DNA of 53,140 bases from an uncultured Pseudomonadota bacterium (lineage in GTDB: Bacteria > Pseudomonadota > Alphaproteobacteria > RF32 > CAG-239). Position numbers and translations under genes: made by a program. Positions 11,687 through 21,450 of this stretch are shown piece by piece. The notes below the pieces were generated by a model. It was given only the letters and a program-made list of their open reading frames with translations. It did not search any database and was not told the DNA's origin. How positions within the stretch are numbered: position 1 is the stretch's first letter; each line of letters opens with the position of its first letter. Where the stretch lies: positions 1 through 53,140 of the forward strand of contig CASGEB010000019.1 in the NCBI GenBank assembly GCA_949300375.1, read 5' to 3'.

Positions 11687-11715
11687 TTGACTATTCGTTT
11701 GAGCCGTGATATAAT
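11687..11715 (+). promoter_or_regulatory. Consensus sigma-70 promoter of the cysteine-rich gene
   Basis: TTGACT (11687-11692), exactly 17 bases, TATAAT (11710-11715). This is nearly perfect consensus, 35 bases before the ATG, and implies strong constitutive expression of the cysteine-rich protein. Confidence 0.75.
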
Positions 11716-11749
11716 TCCCTTATGTGTTTGTTTTGACGGGAGAGGTTTG

Positions 11750-12349
11750 ATGAAACAATATATTTTGGGGAGCGTTTTATGCTGTACCACTCTTATTTCC
11801 GGCTATGCCTTAGCGGCCTGCACACAAACGCCGGATTGCGAGACAATGGGATATGTATATACTGCCGACGAATGTCCGAACGGCGGGGTTAAATGTCCGT
11901 TTGATATCAGCAAATATTTTTGTTTCGCCCCGCAGACCTGCAATTATACTTATACCGCCGAAAGCTGTGCGGCTAATTGCCAAAATGTCGGTTCTTCCTC
12001 CTGTGTCAGAAACGGCACGACTTATTATGCTTCCTGCGGTTCTTCAAAATGTTCAAGTGGGCAAAACTGTTATAACGGGATTTGTTTTACCGAAGTTGCT
12101 GTAGGAGGATATTGCTGTGGATATACAACTTATTGCGGTTACACCGGAGAAACGTCACATTCTAATGACTCTAATTGTCAAAGTATGTGGGGCAGAAATT
12201 GTTATCAAGAGTGCAAAAGTTATGGACTTCCAGATTGTAATGATATGCAAACAAGTTGCCGAGCCTCCGGCAATACCCCGGTCTTTCGGGATTGTGACTA
12301 CGGAGGCAATGCTTCCTACTACTCTATTGTCTATTTTGGATGTCAATAA
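11750..12349 (+). CDS. Cysteine-rich secreted protein (intact family member)
   Basis: A 199-residue exported protein. ATG 11750 has GGGAGAGG in front. A TTG 63 bases upstream lies inside the promoter and is rejected. The signal peptide MKQYILGSVLCCTTLISGYALAA is followed at once by Cys. LAAC could be a lipobox, so it is either a lipoprotein or a soluble product of signal peptidase I. The mature part has about 23 cysteines in 176 residues, in three modules: PDCETMGY-TADEC-CPF-YFC; CNYTYTAESCAANCQ...SCGSSKCSSGQNC; and GYCCGYTTYCGY...CQSMWGRNCYQECKSYGLPDC-SCRASG. No known family is recognised. The many paired cysteines suggest a rigid disulfide-bonded surface or periplasmic protein. Confidence 0.85.
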   Translation: MKQYILGSVLCCTTLISGYALAACTQTPDCETMGYVYTADECPNGGVKCPFDISKYFCFAPQTCNYTYTAESCAANCQNVGSSSCVRNGTTYYASCGSSKCSSGQNCYNGICFTEVAVGGYCCGYTTYCGYTGETSHSNDSNCQSMWGRNCYQECKSYGLPDCNDMQTSCRASGNTPVFRDCDYGGNASYYSIVYFGCQ

Positions 12350-15341: not shown

Positions 15342-15417
<76 letters not shown>

Positions 15418-15433
15418 TTTTTATTTACGGCAT

Positions 15434-15631
15434 CTAAAAACTCCGGCCATTAAAATTGCCGAAGTTTGGGAATCCGGCGAAAATCATAGAGTATCGTTTT
15501 TCTCCGAAAATTATTGCGAAAATCCTCACTCTGAAAATTTATGACCGGCAGGAAAAGAAATTGAGGCAAAACATAATGTTTTGCGTTCCGGCGATTTATC
15601 CGCCTTATTCGATTTTTTTGAACAAAATTAG
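15434..15631 (+). pseudogene. C-terminal gene remnant next to tRNA-Thr
   Basis: One frame reads LKTPAIKIAEVWESGENHRV, SFFSENYCENPHSENL, an in-frame TGA at 15542, then PAGKEIEAKHNVLRSG, DLSALFDFFEQN and TAG (15629-15631). The composition on both sides of the TGA is protein-like and uses the same codons as neighbouring genes. It has no start codon, because the upstream frame runs into the tRNA. Best read as a leftover 3' end of a lost gene. No family is recognised. Confidence 0.35.
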
Positions 15632-15699: not shown

Positions 15700-17619
15700 A
15701 TGATGTCGGCAAAACAAACAACTAAAGTTATTTCTGATATTTTCAACAACGCTTCAGGCGGGGTTGCCGTTTTATATAGCGGAACAACCGGCATCGGCAA
15801 GTCTTATGACTGGTTTCATTTTATTTCTCCGGCTCTTGCAGCAGACAAAAAATATTATGTTTCTTTATCCGGCATTACCAATACGGTCGGAATCAAAAAT
15901 GCATTACTCGCTGATTATTTTCGGCAAAACACACATCCGGTTGTCCGGGCATTATTGTTTTTGATATTTTTTGCCGCATCTTTAGCAATCATTTTTCCGC
16001 GACAGGAAAAGATTTTTAACCTGACAACATCAGAAATATATAATTTTATCAGCAATTTTTTTATTCTCGGCGCGCTGATTCTCGGGCTTTCTCTGGCAGC
16101 CTGGAAAATTTTTTCATTTTTTGCCTCCTTTATTTATAAATACAGCGGACGGCGGTCTCAAGACATTCTGCTAAAGTCAGTTATCTCATCAGCATCCGTT
16201 ATCTGTTTTGACGATTTTGAACAACTTTCCGAATCCAAAGCCCGTGAAGAGGCTTTGGCTTATTTTTTTGAACTGTCCAAAGGTTACGGCATAAAAATTT
16301 TAGTTATTTCCGGCAGTCCGGCAATTTCAAAGTCTCAAGAAAAATCTGACAGCCTCTTCAAGCAAGGTAAAATTTTTGATTACTGTTTTCAAAAAACGGA
16401 AGGGTATGATTTTGTCAGCGAGATAAAAAGAAAGCTGAAAGATTATCCCGAAGCTAAAGAAATTTTTCTGAGATTTTATACCGCTTTTGCCGATGTTCCC
16501 TGCTTTTTTGCCCTTGCACAAAATTTTAAAATCTGCAAAAAAGCCGCGCGCAACGTTAAACGTTTTTGCAGAGAAATCAATAAATTCGGACAACGTCCCG
16601 ATGACTATTGCATGGCCATCCGTTATGTCATAAGGATTAGTTTTTTTAATGAACTCGGCAACAGCGCTCTGATTGACAACAGCCGTTATTATAAAATCGA
16701 CCGAAACAATCCGTCCGGATTGTCCCCCGAAGATTTTATCGAAATGCTGGCTTTTGACGACAACAGGCATCATCTTGCTTACTTTCCCGAGTTGGAAAAA
16801 TTTATTTTAAGAAAACATTTTGACCGCGAAAGACTAAGAAACGAGCTTTATCCGGAAGAGCAGGAAGACCTGACTGATTTTGAAGAAACAATTTTTTCCT
16901 TTAACGGCAAAGAAATTTGCAACGGTCAAAAAAGCAAAATTGAAAAACGCCTGCTTATGGCTGAAGATATGCTCAAAAACAAGGACGGAAATTTGTTTTC
17001 CCGGCCGTCCAACTTTGTACAGGCATTCAGCCGTTACAGTTATGCCGTTTTTCTTTTGTATCCGGAAAACATTAAGCAAAAGCTTGATATTTTTCTTAAC
17101 CGGACAATAAAAGAATTTGACAAGTTTTCCAACAGCGCAATAGAGAGCCTGGCCGCGGAAATCTGGAACAGAGAGGCTGTCGGGACTTATTTTGCCAATG
17201 CGGAACATTGGAATATTTTGAAAAAGTACGGCAAACGCATCAAAAAAACCTTGGTCGGCATTCTTTATCTGAAAGCTTTTTTTAATCCGGAAAAACTTTG
17301 CAGCGACATGGAATCAAATTTTCCGGCAGCTGTTGCACAACTCTGGGGGTTGTCGCAAAAAATGCTTTTGCAAGAAAGTTTGGACAGGCTTTTTGAAGAA
17401 GACCCCGACCTTTATATTGACCTTGTCCGAGCCATAGAAGATTTCTTGCGGGAAAACGGGCAAAAACTATTTTGCCGGGAAATTAATCTGACGCCGCTGG
17501 TTACAAATTCATTGAACGGCAGCCTTGATTTTGTATTAAAAAATGCGCCATTTGTTTCATCTAACAGCATGAAACATTTATATGAGCTTAAAGACAATCT
17601 GGGAAAAATCCCGGGTTAA
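15700..17619 (+). CDS. KAP-type membrane P-loop NTPase (possible phage defence)
   Basis: A 639-residue protein. The P-loop motif SGTTGIGKS (27-35) lies near the N terminus. Two hydrophobic segments (about 82-100 and 117-145) interrupt the NTPase domain before Walker B VICFDDFEQL (D171, D172). A sensor-like ILVISGSP follows. Membrane helices inserted between Walker A and Walker B are the hallmark of KAP NTPases (Kidins220 and the phage-exclusion protein PifA). The 400-residue C-terminal part is helical and unrecognised. ATG 15700 is chosen over GTG 15694; the ribosome site is weak for all three candidate starts. It sits between tRNA-Thr and murD with no partner gene, and its stop codon overlaps that of murD. 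The defence role is an inference from family and context. Confidence 0.7.
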   Translation: MMSAKQTTKVISDIFNNASGGVAVLYSGTTGIGKSYDWFHFISPALAADKKYYVSLSGITNTVGIKNALLADYFRQNTHPVVRALLFLIFFAASLAIIFPRQEKIFNLTTSEIYNFISNFFILGALILGLSLAAWKIFSFFASFIYKYSGRRSQDILLKSVISSASVICFDDFEQLSESKAREEALAYFFELSKGYGIKILVISGSPAISKSQEKSDSLFKQGKIFDYCFQKTEGYDFVSEIKRKLKDYPEAKEIFLRFYTAFADVPCFFALAQNFKICKKAARNVKRFCREINKFGQRPDDYCMAIRYVIRISFFNELGNSALIDNSRYYKIDRNNPSGLSPEDFIEMLAFDDNRHHLAYFPELEKFILRKHFDRERLRNELYPEEQEDLTDFEETIFSFNGKEICNGQKSKIEKRLLMAEDMLKNKDGNLFSRPSNFVQAFSRYSYAVFLLYPENIKQKLDIFLNRTIKEFDKFSNSAIESLAAEIWNREAVGTYFANAEHWNILKKYGKRIKKTLVGILYLKAFFNPEKLCSDMESNFPAAVAQLWGLSQKMLLQESLDRLFEEDPDLYIDLVRAIEDFLRENGQKLFCREINLTPLVTNSLNGSLDFVLKNAPFVSSNSMKHLYELKDNLGKIPG

Positions 17620-18983
17620 GATTTTTTTATCAGGTTGTTTACAGTATCAATAAAATGCCGGCCGCGTTCCATAAAGTTTTTATAAACGCCAAAACTTGGC
17701 GCCGTCGGAGAAAACAGCACTATTCCCCCTTTGCCGGCCGTTAAAGTTTTATAGGCTTCAGAAACGGCTTCTTCCAGGGTTTGCGGCTGCAACAAAACAA
17801 AATCCGGACGGGTAACGTATTTTCTAATCGCTTCAGCCAGATAAGGGCCGCTTTGATATAAGGCGCAGACCATTTTGACTTTTGAATTTTCCTGCACATA
17901 GCGGGCATAATCGTCATAATTTTGTTCCAGATACTGCCCTCCGGAAATCAGCGCCAAATCTTCGTCAAAGCTTTTCATTCCGCCGATGGCCGCTTCCGGC
18001 GCCGTCGAGATACTGTCATTAATAAACAACACGCCATTGTGTGTTGCAACTTTTTGCAGACGGTGTTCCAGCGGCTCAAAACTTTTCAAAGTTTCAACCG
18101 CGGCATAAATATCCAGACCAAGCTCATTGAGGATTGAAAAAACGCCGGCGAGATTATCAAGATTGTGATTGCCGCTGATTTTGAGTTCATTAATATTGAG
18201 CAGCAATTTGTCCTGCCAATAAAGCTCCCTGCCCTCGGCGTGAAAATTTTGCAGCTGGTTATAAAATTTTTTATTTTTACCGGTATAAGGCGCACAATAT
18301 TCTTTCAGCTGCTCATTACGGTCGTTTACAAAAAACGAATCTCCTTCCCGCTGATTGGCAATCAGATGAATTTTGTCCCGGCAGTAGTTCTCGTGTCCGT
18401 GATGCCAATCGCTATGGACATAGTACAAGTTTGTAAACATGGCCAGATGCGGCGAATTGTGCAAATCGGCGGCCTGATAACTTGAAAATTCGCAAACGGC
18501 ATAATCATATTTTTCGTCAATCAATTCAATCATCGGCTTGCCGATATTGCCGCCCAGTCCGACATTCAGCCCCTGTGCTTTCATCATATGGTACATGGCC
18601 GAAACGCTGGTGCTTTTTCCTTTGGAGCCGCTGACACCGATGATTGTGCATTGCGGCTGGTTCATACGGACTTCATCCAAAAAAATGTCCGAAGAAGATG
18701 TTATTTCTATCCCGTCAGATTTGGCTTGCACCAGTTCATCGCGATACATACTGACGCCGGGAGATTTGATAATTACATCCGTCTTGAGCAAAATATCCTT
18801 TAACTCATCCCCGACAAAAATTTTCAGTTCCTTATATTTTTCGGGAAGGTCAAAAGCTTTGTCTCCGTAAACAAAAATTTGTTTGGCAATATTATGCTTG
18901 CGCAAATATTCCAGAACGGATGTTCCTTCTGTTCCCAGTCCCCAGAGCAGGATATTTTTATTTTGAAGATTTTTCAGCAGCAT
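17616..18983 (-). CDS. murD: UDP-N-acetylmuramoyl-L-alanine:glutamate ligase MurD
   Basis: Cytosolic Mur ligase adding glutamate to UDP-MurNAc-L-Ala in peptidoglycan synthesis. 455 residues. The N-terminal Rossmann part (ILLWGLGTEG) is followed by SPGV (74-77), the ATP loop GVSGSKGKST (116-125), and the central and C-terminal domains (EPLEHRLQKV..FINDSISTAPEA, FSPTAPSFG). ATG 18983 is chosen because AAAGGA precedes it and the protein start aligns with MurD. The longer frame to 19064 only reads into the upstream gene. It overlaps the MscS gene by 26 bases. The 'SDWHHGHENY' segment resembles MurD and also MurD2-type enzymes that use L-glutamate, so the stereospecificity is uncertain. Confidence 0.88.
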   Translation of the reverse strand: MLLKNLQNKNILLWGLGTEGTSVLEYLRKHNIAKQIFVYGDKAFDLPEKYKELKIFVGDELKDILLKTDVIIKSPGVSMYRDELVQAKSDGIEITSSSDIFLDEVRMNQPQCTIIGVSGSKGKSTSVSAMYHMMKAQGLNVGLGGNIGKPMIELIDEKYDYAVCEFSSYQAADLHNSPHLAMFTNLYYVHSDWHHGHENYCRDKIHLIANQREGDSFFVNDRNEQLKEYCAPYTGKNKKFYNQLQNFHAEGRELYWQDKLLLNINELKISGNHNLDNLAGVFSILNELGLDIYAAVETLKSFEPLEHRLQKVATHNGVLFINDSISTAPEAAIGGMKSFDEDLALISGGQYLEQNYDDYARYVQENSKVKMVCALYQSGPYLAEAIRKYVTRPDFVLLQPQTLEEAVSEAYKTLTAGKGGIVLFSPTAPSFGVYKNFMERGRHFIDTVNNLIKKS

Positions 18984-21450
18984 TCGCTTTTCCTTTCTTT
19001 TTGGCAGAGGCGTAAAACTGGCTGTCTGTTTCTTTGGAAACTTCACTACCTTGGTGAACGACAAGCTGGTTGAACGGTATTTCTATTCCTTCTTCGCGGA
19101 AACGGCGGTTTATTTCATAACGCAAATCGCTCGGAACCGTCCATCCCTCCCAAATATCATTGACATAAAACCGCAGTTCGAATTCCAGGCTGCTGGCGCC
19201 GAAATCCTGAAACAAAACATAAGGAGCCGGCTTTTTCAGCACTTTTTTATGATTTTGCGCCGTTTCCATCAAAATAGCTTTTACCTGGTCGGTATCCGAA
19301 CCATAAGCAACGCCGACATTTACCGCATAGCGCGCCCAGTTGTTGCTATGGGTCAGGTTGGTTACAGTTCCGGAAAGCAGCGAGGCGTTCGGAATAATCA
19401 CGCTGGAACGTTTGAACGTTTCAACTTCCGTTGAGCGGATATTAATCTGTTTTACTTTTCCTTCCTCGCCGTTGATTATGACCCAGTCGCCGACTTTTAT
19501 CGGACGTTCAAAAAGCAGAATAATCCCTGATACAAAGTTGTTTACCACATTCTGCAAACCTAAACCGATACCAACTGACAAGGCGCCGGCAACCAGAGCA
19601 AAATTTCTTAAATTGCCGCCCATTATGGCAAAAGACAAAAGGGCTGCTATCGTAAAGCCCAAAAAACCGAATCCGGAGGCCAGAGAATGTTTTAAGCCGT
19701 CTTCAATATCCATTTTGCCCAGAACGTTATTCAGCAGTCTGGCTTTCATTGAGCGGACAGCCGCAATGGAAAAGAAAAAAACAATCAGCCCGATTATAAT
19801 CGCCAGCGGAGATATTTCTATTCCGCCAACGTTAAAACCTGTCATCACTTTGATGGTGGTTTGAATCAGAATATCTGTTGAAACGCCCCAAAGGCTCAAT
19901 AACGCCAATCCGCCGAAAATGATAAAAATCGGGTCAAGAATTAAACCGGACCAAAAATTAATCTTGCGGATTATCTTGCGGCGCATACGAAAAGTATGTA
20001 CCCAGAAACGCCATAACAGCATTCGGTGCAAAGCTTCGTTTACGGCCTTGCGGAAAATAACAATCGCTCCGATAATCAGCACGGAAACGATAAGCTTGTT
20101 AAAGATAAAAGCAGAAAGGTACGGATAGCCGAATACCGAAAGAGAAAATACACCAAAGGCAAATATTGAGGTCAGAAAAGTAATTTTGATTGACCGGCTT
20201 AAAGTCTCGTCTTCGGTTTCATCATAAGAAATATCTTCTTCCCCACTTTCCGCTTTTTCTTCCGGAATATCTTCCCAGACCAAATGCTTGACAATCCAGG
20301 CAATGGAAAAGGCTTTAGCGGCATTGGAGACGGATGTCAGAAAACCTATCAGTTCAAGAGAATAGCCGGCTTTTTCGGCAACATGCTCCAGCCAGGCCGT
20401 TATCCCAATCAGCAAAATGCTGATATATACGGCGTGCGTTACCTTTATGGCCTTATCCGTTGAATAACTTATCAGCCGCCAGCGTTCATTGTAAGGCGCA
20501 AAGATTACCCGCGCAACGGCCTTGCATAAAATCATTATCAAGGTAAAATACAAAAAGCTGTTTATCAGAATGCCGAAAAAACCCACCGTCATGACTTGAG
20601 AATTGATCATCCATAACAACAATCCACCTATCAGAAACGCCGGGATAACGCCGTATCCAACCGCAACGGCTATTGCCGCCGCAACCTTACGCCCGTAAGA
20701 AATATGTTCCAAAGTATTATCATAGCCAAAATGACGCATAATGAAAAAGCGCAGATAAACCCCCAGCCACAAGCATAAAAGAAAGACCACCGTTACCGGC
20801 AGCAGATTGGATTTTACAAAGTCCCGACCTTCGCTATTGAGTTCCTGAAACCAGTCTACCGGCGAGCGGACGGCATCTATTCCGAACTCAACAAACAAGC
20901 GGGCATCATTAAAAAACACTGCCGGATAAACAAGCGGAAGCTGGCGTTCCAAAAGGTTGCCCAACAATTTTTGATTACGGACGTTTACAATCAGGCTGTC
21001 CAGTTCATCAATTTTGGTCAACATCAAATCGATTTCGGCAATTTTGCTTTTCAGCGAGGAGGCCTCTTCGTTAAACTCTTTCCTCTTATTGGCTATCAGC
21101 GGCGGTTCTGAACCGTCTTCCGGCGCTTCGCCGAGGGCATCTATCCGTTTTTGCACAAAATTCAACTCTTTTTCGACTTGTTTTTTGCTGTCGGACAGCT
21201 GCGTTCTGGTTTCGCTTAAAAATTTGACGGTATCGGAAATTTCGCTGACGGTAATTTTATTGCTTTTGAGCGTTTCTTCCGTCCGGGTCAGGGATTTGCT
21301 TACTTCCCGATAATTGACCTCCGGCGATGTGATGGATTCAACAACGCGCGTAACGGCATCAACTTCTGTTTTGGTTTCTTCCGTTTGGGCTGCTGCCGAA
21401 AATGCAAACAGAACGGATATTGCCAGAAAAACGCCCCAAAGCTTTTTCAT
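18958..21450 (-). CDS. Large MscS-family mechanosensitive channel
   Basis: An inner-membrane osmotic safety valve of 830 residues. A signal peptide (MKKLWGVFLAISVLFAFSAAAQ) leads into a periplasmic coiled coil (about 30-165). About ten membrane segments follow, then the MscS core near 620-800: LVAGALSVGIGLGLQNVVNNFVSGIILL pore helix, FERPIKVGDWV, and the beta/alpha C-terminal domain (GVAYGSDTDQVKAIL, PYVLFQDFGASSLEF). Length and layout resemble MscK/MscM-type channels and DUF3772 proteins rather than the small MscS. The 3' end overlaps murD by 26 bases, so the two are probably translationally coupled. Confidence 0.9.
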   Translation of the reverse strand: MKKLWGVFLAISVLFAFSAAAQTEETKTEVDAVTRVVESITSPEVNYREVSKSLTRTEETLKSNKITVSEISDTVKFLSETRTQLSDSKKQVEKELNFVQKRIDALGEAPEDGSEPPLIANKRKEFNEEASSLKSKIAEIDLMLTKIDELDSLIVNVRNQKLLGNLLERQLPLVYPAVFFNDARLFVEFGIDAVRSPVDWFQELNSEGRDFVKSNLLPVTVVFLLCLWLGVYLRFFIMRHFGYDNTLEHISYGRKVAAAIAVAVGYGVIPAFLIGGLLLWMINSQVMTVGFFGILINSFLYFTLIMILCKAVARVIFAPYNERWRLISYSTDKAIKVTHAVYISILLIGITAWLEHVAEKAGYSLELIGFLTSVSNAAKAFSIAWIVKHLVWEDIPEEKAESGEEDISYDETEDETLSRSIKITFLTSIFAFGVFSLSVFGYPYLSAFIFNKLIVSVLIIGAIVIFRKAVNEALHRMLLWRFWVHTFRMRRKIIRKINFWSGLILDPIFIIFGGLALLSLWGVSTDILIQTTIKVMTGFNVGGIEISPLAIIIGLIVFFFSIAAVRSMKARLLNNVLGKMDIEDGLKHSLASGFGFLGFTIAALLSFAIMGGNLRNFALVAGALSVGIGLGLQNVVNNFVSGIILLFERPIKVGDWVIINGEEGKVKQINIRSTEVETFKRSSVIIPNASLLSGTVTNLTHSNNWARYAVNVGVAYGSDTDQVKAILMETAQNHKKVLKKPAPYVLFQDFGASSLEFELRFYVNDIWEGWTVPSDLRYEINRRFREEGIEIPFNQLVVHQGSEVSKETDSQFYASAKKKGKANAAEKSSK

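Follow-up and report, generated by a model that had tools for sequence, protein, structure and literature searches.

The closest described counterparts of the gene analyzed here are P-loop NTPases of the KAP superfamily. Tmn, a KAP NTPase with two transmembrane segments, blocks several coliphages (PMC11846954), and QatA, the KAP protein of the qatABCD system, forms heptamers or octamers (PMC13279940). Single-gene, membrane-associated KAP defense is already known from Tmn and from PifA, the phage exclusion protein of the F plasmid, and the nearest family of our gene, a soluble one, is catalogued in PADLOC-DB as the candidate PDC-S49 (PDLC05029-05031), so that the proposal in a first-pass annotation of a defense system "not yet described" was too strong. 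Guilt by embedding is the approach that yielded the PDC candidates, most of which are putative (PMC12988326).

We analyzed a stretch of 53,140 nucleotides from an uncultured alphaproteobacterium (hereafter the window), which contains a gene for a KAP-like NTPase with two predicted membrane helices inside its P-loop domain. We lean toward the view that it encodes an accessory single-gene, inner-membrane-tethered P-loop NTPase acting as a phage-defense protein. The features of the locus are as follows:

15342-15417, + strand: tRNA-Thr(CGT), in every carrier inverted with respect to murD
15468-15631, + strand: frameshifted remnant of a CatB/Vat-like hexapeptide acetyltransferase gene (codons about 154-205), intact in G096, G097, and G099
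15703-17619, + strand: gene for the KAP-like membrane NTPase (638 aa; an uninterrupted ORF under purifying selection, with orthologues in three other genomes)
15781-15804, + strand: Walker A/P-loop GTTGIGKS, residues 27-34 (GIWGIGKT in the G097 and G096 orthologues)
15940-15996, + strand: predicted transmembrane helix 1, residues 80-98 (Kyte-Doolittle 2.6; a helix in the AlphaFold model)
16045-16113, + strand: predicted transmembrane helix 2, residues 115-137 (Kyte-Doolittle 2.1; a helix in the AlphaFold model)
16198-16230, + strand: Walker B VICFDDFEQLS, residues 166-176 with D170, D171, and E173 (from motif and model)
16405-16581, + strand: helical, lid-like end of the homology detectable with PDC-S49 relatives, residues about 235-293 (from profile and structure comparison)
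16582-17616, + strand: all-helical C-terminal region, without a detectable relative outside the genus clade
17616-19064, - strand: murD, convergent, the conserved border of the insertion site (TIGR01087, 296 bits)

The NTPase and Its Membrane Hairpin

The NTPase gene is present in a single copy in the window genome as an intact ORF on the + strand that encodes 638-641 amino acids depending on the start codon (15694/15703-17619, with the TAA ending at 17619). The possible starts are GTG 15694 (641 aa) and ATG 15700/15703 (638-639 aa), of which the ATG is more likely, and residues are counted here from ATG 15703. The layout described in the first-pass annotation, with two membrane segments between Walker A and Walker B, is borne out (residues 27-34; 80-98 and 115-137; and 165-173, reading SVICFDDFE), as are the neighbors that it named, a tRNA (tRNA-Thr) and a gene remnant (the acetyltransferase). 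All four orthologues in the genus, counting that of the window, retain the frame, the motifs, and the hairpin; in G096 the second helix alone clears the hydropathy cut-off.

Two nearly invariant positions are changed in the window protein. Its Walker A has no tryptophan where KAP proteins usually have one (GxWGxGK to GTTGIGKS, W29T), and the arginine of DDxER is replaced by glutamine (R174Q), both changes being common only to the window and the 85% identical G099. With these substitutions the activity of the window NTPase may be altered, while the catalytic residues K33, S34, D170, D171, and E173 are unchanged.

The full AlphaFold model is of moderate confidence (mean pLDDT 66), and our interpretation is therefore confined to the NTPase half, in which the P-loop core is well predicted, with core strands bearing both Walker motifs and long helices at the hairpin. 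As both Walker motifs would be cytoplasmic, the hairpin is predicted to enter and leave the inner membrane from one side. The NTPase-half model aligns with TnsC, MuB, ORC/Cdc6, CED-4, and ZAR1 (Z 12-15 over about 185-250 residues, rmsd 3.5-5.4), matches that indicate a predicted assembling ATPase core with a lid and imply no function.

Relationship to PDC-S49 and the KAP Superfamily

Two features that mark KAP NTPases, the paired Walker motifs of an ASCE/AAA+-like P-loop NTPase and membrane segments between Walker A and Walker B (residues 27 and 166, respectively), are both present. Searches of Pfam, NCBIfam, PHROGs, and PADLOC with the window protein nevertheless gave chance matches only, with no match to the Pfam KAP model (PF07693), to which the best orthologue reaches 13.8 bits against a cut-off of 20, and none to any PADLOC model, PDC-S49 included. 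The PADLOC PDC-S49 models do match the G097 and G096 orthologues (E 3e-10 and 1e-13, respectively), over parts of the NTPase only, and tblastn recovers plasmid proteins annotated as KAP family NTPases. A literature search for PDC-S49 by name found no paper.

The link to KAP becomes apparent through intermediate relatives. A profile search of viral contigs yielded 21 relatives; a profile made from the genus alone found none in viral contigs, and tblastn of an orthologue found none in phage records. An alignment of 20 members drawn from the viral-contig relatives and the genus clade (A3) includes 18 that match PADLOC PDC-S49 and 17 that match Pfam KAP at E 0.01 or better. In local hhalign comparisons with reversed-sequence controls, the NTPase half of the genus clade (about residues 1-293) matches the PDC-S49-like set at P 1e-21 to 2e-24 (reversed, 0.19), and the PDC-S49-like set matches the KAP loci at P 8e-14 (reversed, 0.61); compared directly with KAP, the genus clade matches weakly (P 5e-4) and over Walker A only. 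In view of the Pfam result we call the window NTPase KAP-related rather than a curated KAP member, and the earlier designation "KAP-type NTPase" is right at the superfamily level, only via intermediate relatives, and lacks a direct Pfam match.

PDC-S49 shares with the window NTPase an NTPase domain of about 290 residues, the single-gene organization, and the motifs G.WG.GKT..W, YVSLFG, ICxDDLER, and EKVxD. The window NTPase is by its predicted sequence features not a strict member of PDC-S49, because its C-terminus differs, that of the window clade having no detectable relationship to that of PDC-S49. The hairpin is a further difference: none of the 31 relatives checked (19 and 12 in two sets) has paired membrane helices at this place in the P-loop domain, the nearest case being L135 with one borderline segment. 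The hairpin could be a gain in the window clade, or was retained there and lost elsewhere; it looks like a gain.

The C-terminus, roughly 340 residues, is known from four genomes, all belonging to the same genus. A search of 289 genomes of the class turned up nothing similar beyond that genus other than one chance match full of stops; plasmids gave no match and PDB sequences nothing beyond chance, in agreement with its first description as unrecognized. Comparison of the C-terminal halves of the genus clade and the PDC-S49-like set gave P 0.06 (reversed, 0.096), with low sensitivity owing to a query of four similar sequences, and the separate model of this region (mean pLDDT 58) is too poor for a structure search.

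Insertion Site, Distribution, and Selection

We found the NTPase gene in 4 of the 152 genomes examined from the bacterial family, all in one genus, and the other three orthologues are 85, 55, and 50% identical to that of the window. In all four carriers the gene lies between murD and tRNA-Thr(CGT) (the G099 contig ends within the tRNA), whereas in three genomes of the same genus (G095, G098, and G100) and three of the family (G061, G068, and G072) murD is followed directly by tRNA-Thr. At these empty sites the tRNA is co-oriented with murD, while in the carriers the tRNA-Thr, acetyltransferase, and NTPase genes are inverted relative to it. This pattern of site and orientation is explained by a single insertion that was then inherited vertically. 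In the window, the 3' ends of the NTPase gene and of the convergent murD overlap by 4 bp. Vertical conservation in a fixed context had been named in advance as grounds against a defense role; it is indeed found within the four carriers, but the sister lineages have a clean empty site, and the gene is therefore an accessory insertion rather than a housekeeping gene. Assignment to a housekeeping AAA family was rejected on the empty sites and the patchy presence.

Between the window and G099 the NTPase gene has a dN of 0.082, a dS of 0.442, and a dN/dS of 0.185, which rules out a chance ORF. For two neighbor genes in the same pair the values are dN 0.010, dS 0.29-0.36, and dN/dS 0.03-0.04. The similar dS indicates shared descent with the neighbors, and the NTPase is under purifying selection yet evolves fast, with a dN about eight times theirs.

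The tRNA-Thr has other peculiarities. In G061, which belongs to another genus, genes that look foreign and may come from a phage immediately follow the same tRNA (L048:6398-16001), and the tRNA may thus be a recurrent integration site. In six genomes, a second copy of about 48 nt of its 3' half stands downstream of the intact tRNA, at a distance of about 256-275 bp (L008:12565-12935, L007:12600-12936, L009:8910-9250, L044:5420-5800, L045:1-385, and L031:1140-1560). The spacer is homologous among genomes and contains GCGTTGCTA-GCTCTGGCTCGTAAATGTT, and the region has the tRNA as its sole match in Rfam. Most copies of the repeat track the sequence of their own tRNA, which suggests gene conversion or recurrent integration as candidate origins. 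The window lacks the repeat, which was removed by a 734-bp deletion.

The same deletion (relative to G097) destroyed the acetyltransferase gene of the window, joining the sequence behind tRNA-Thr (up to 15467) to codon about 154 (from 15468), with a frameshift after the junction. Where intact (G096, G097, and G099), this gene encodes 205 residues and lies between tRNA-Thr and the NTPase gene. Its nearest models are CatB and Vat, far below their cut-offs, and the copies in the family genomes likewise score well under the cut-offs set for known resistance models. It occurs in 28 of 136 family genomes (e.g., G026:C10:45559 and G087:C74:8909, besides 26 others), most copies outside the genus being 64-77% identical. 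As these are nearly always genomes without the NTPase, it is an independent accessory gene. Elsewhere in the window, 785-1306 and 11687-12349 code for two similar cysteine-rich proteins that appear to be secreted (CPFD...C..PQTC.YTYTAE.CAANCQN); similar genes are seen in L043 and L045, and the group looks like an expanded family specific to the lineage.

Genomic Context of Relatives

The window locus sits among housekeeping genes with no defense gene adjoining, and the defense context described here is that of its relatives, given as a list of cases in which the viral-contig relatives are biased toward phages by the collection itself. Six viral-contig relatives (L050, L052, L053, L055, L056, and L065) end beside the P2-type portal gene gpQ (phrog_68). 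On the opposite side, L052, L056, and L065 have the replication nickase gene gpA (phrog_91), confirmed by search; in L050 and L055 the upstream gene is gpA-like by position and start sequence, and in L053 fragments lie upstream of the NTPase relative. P2-like phages carry a published hotspot for anti-phage systems between gpA and gpQ (PMC9122126). Of the other relatives, one is embedded in a type I restriction operon on an Aliarcobacter plasmid (L010), one from the same bacterial family as the window lies beside HsdS and PDC-S31 (L042), two are near PDC-S73 and PDC-S15 (L131 and L129), and one is about 5 kb from an OLD-type gene (L136). We also observed that the relative at L042:477-1097 (G075), next to split HsdS genes, has no membrane helices by eye and is broken by a TAA.

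There are counter-examples. In two related genomes a PDC-S49-like gene lies between genes that are modA/modB-like by eye (L126:6928-10673 and L127:3379-7162), a place among putative molybdate transporter genes that reads as a non-defense insertion site, and the relatives L037 and L130 are found among ordinary-looking genes. The earlier proposal of a candidate phage-defense gene is partly supported, by the apparent association of relatives with defense and not by the window locus itself, whose context is neutral.

Possible Function

We infer a defense role from these relatives, and sensing, assembly, and membrane action from the architecture. The homology of the NTPase half to PDC-S49, the patchy presence of the gene, and its fast yet constrained evolution also speak for this reading, as do the structural matches of the NTPase half. 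The cytoplasmic C-terminal helices would sense an infection cue and gate an AAA+/STAND-like NTPase domain, which the hairpin would hold at the membrane and which would bind ATP and assemble; assembly is plausible because QatA, itself a KAP protein, forms oligomers (PMC13279940). The assembled complex might then disturb the membrane, or block phage replication there, so that the infection is aborted. What argues against defense, besides the lack of an adjoining defense gene, the lack of a match of the window protein to any defense model, and the two changed motif residues, is the C-terminus, where specificity would presumably lie, since it is not detectably shared with the defense-associated relatives. 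A more far-reaching form of the proposal, which we put forward tentatively as a possibility that may well fail, is that in one alphaproteobacterial genus a soluble KAP-related defense family gained a hairpin in its P-loop domain and swapped its C-terminus, and so became a new single-gene membrane system with an all-helical phage sensor or effector not seen elsewhere. If this is true, an otherwise soluble defense family can newly acquire membrane helices within its P-loop ATPase, and soluble PDC-S49 and the membrane variant form a natural pair for the contribution of the hairpin to KAP-type immunity.

KAP proteins are not all defense proteins, and a KAP-like membrane NTPase could have been recruited to another role in the genus, such as envelope stress or membrane organization, and inherited vertically beside murD. 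Such a role would agree with the constant place of the gene and its vertical descent in the four carriers, with a C-terminus and hairpin unique to them, and with the lack of defense neighbors. It seems unlikely to us, however, as the murD-tRNA-Thr junction is intact in the six genomes without the NTPase, three of them in the same genus, the dN is well above that of the neighbors, and relatives occur in phage defense hotspots.

It is improbable that the gene is a former defense gene whose function is being lost in the window lineage: the ORF is full length, the five catalytic residues are intact, and a dN/dS of 0.185 at a dS of 0.44 between the window and G099 speaks for continuing constraint, against which stand the W29T and R174Q changes common to these two genomes and the destruction of the adjacent acetyltransferase gene in the window. 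That gene is found on the same strand about 66-73 bp upstream of the NTPase gene in G096, G097, and G099, which would suit a system of two genes in which the acetyltransferase partners the NTPase, for instance as a modification enzyme or antitoxin-like protein. We consider such a system highly improbable, since the acetyltransferase resembles CatB/Vat xenobiotic acetyltransferases and has been lost in the window while the NTPase is still full length, and we rejected it as a partner because it occurs nearly always where the NTPase is absent.

Comparison with Known Systems

A single-gene membrane NTPase in phage defense, the reading that we prefer, can be set beside three kinds of described proteins. 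STAND and initiator AAA+ ATPases (CED-4, ZAR1, ORC/Cdc6, and TnsC) have a core plus helical lid like that predicted for the window NTPase (Z 12-15), but at 9-15% identity only the fold is shared, and we know of no membrane hairpin in the core of these ATPases. PifA and QatA belong to the same KAP P-loop superfamily, but their PADLOC models do not match the window protein, while classical KAP loci, as a positive control, do match. QatA, like the window NTPase, also carries a C-terminal domain without an assigned role (PMC13279940). Tmn, going by its published description, is like the window NTPase a single-gene, KAP-type NTPase with two transmembrane segments (PMC11846954). This resemblance is at most one of architecture, and the hairpin of the window clade was probably gained independently of that in Tmn.
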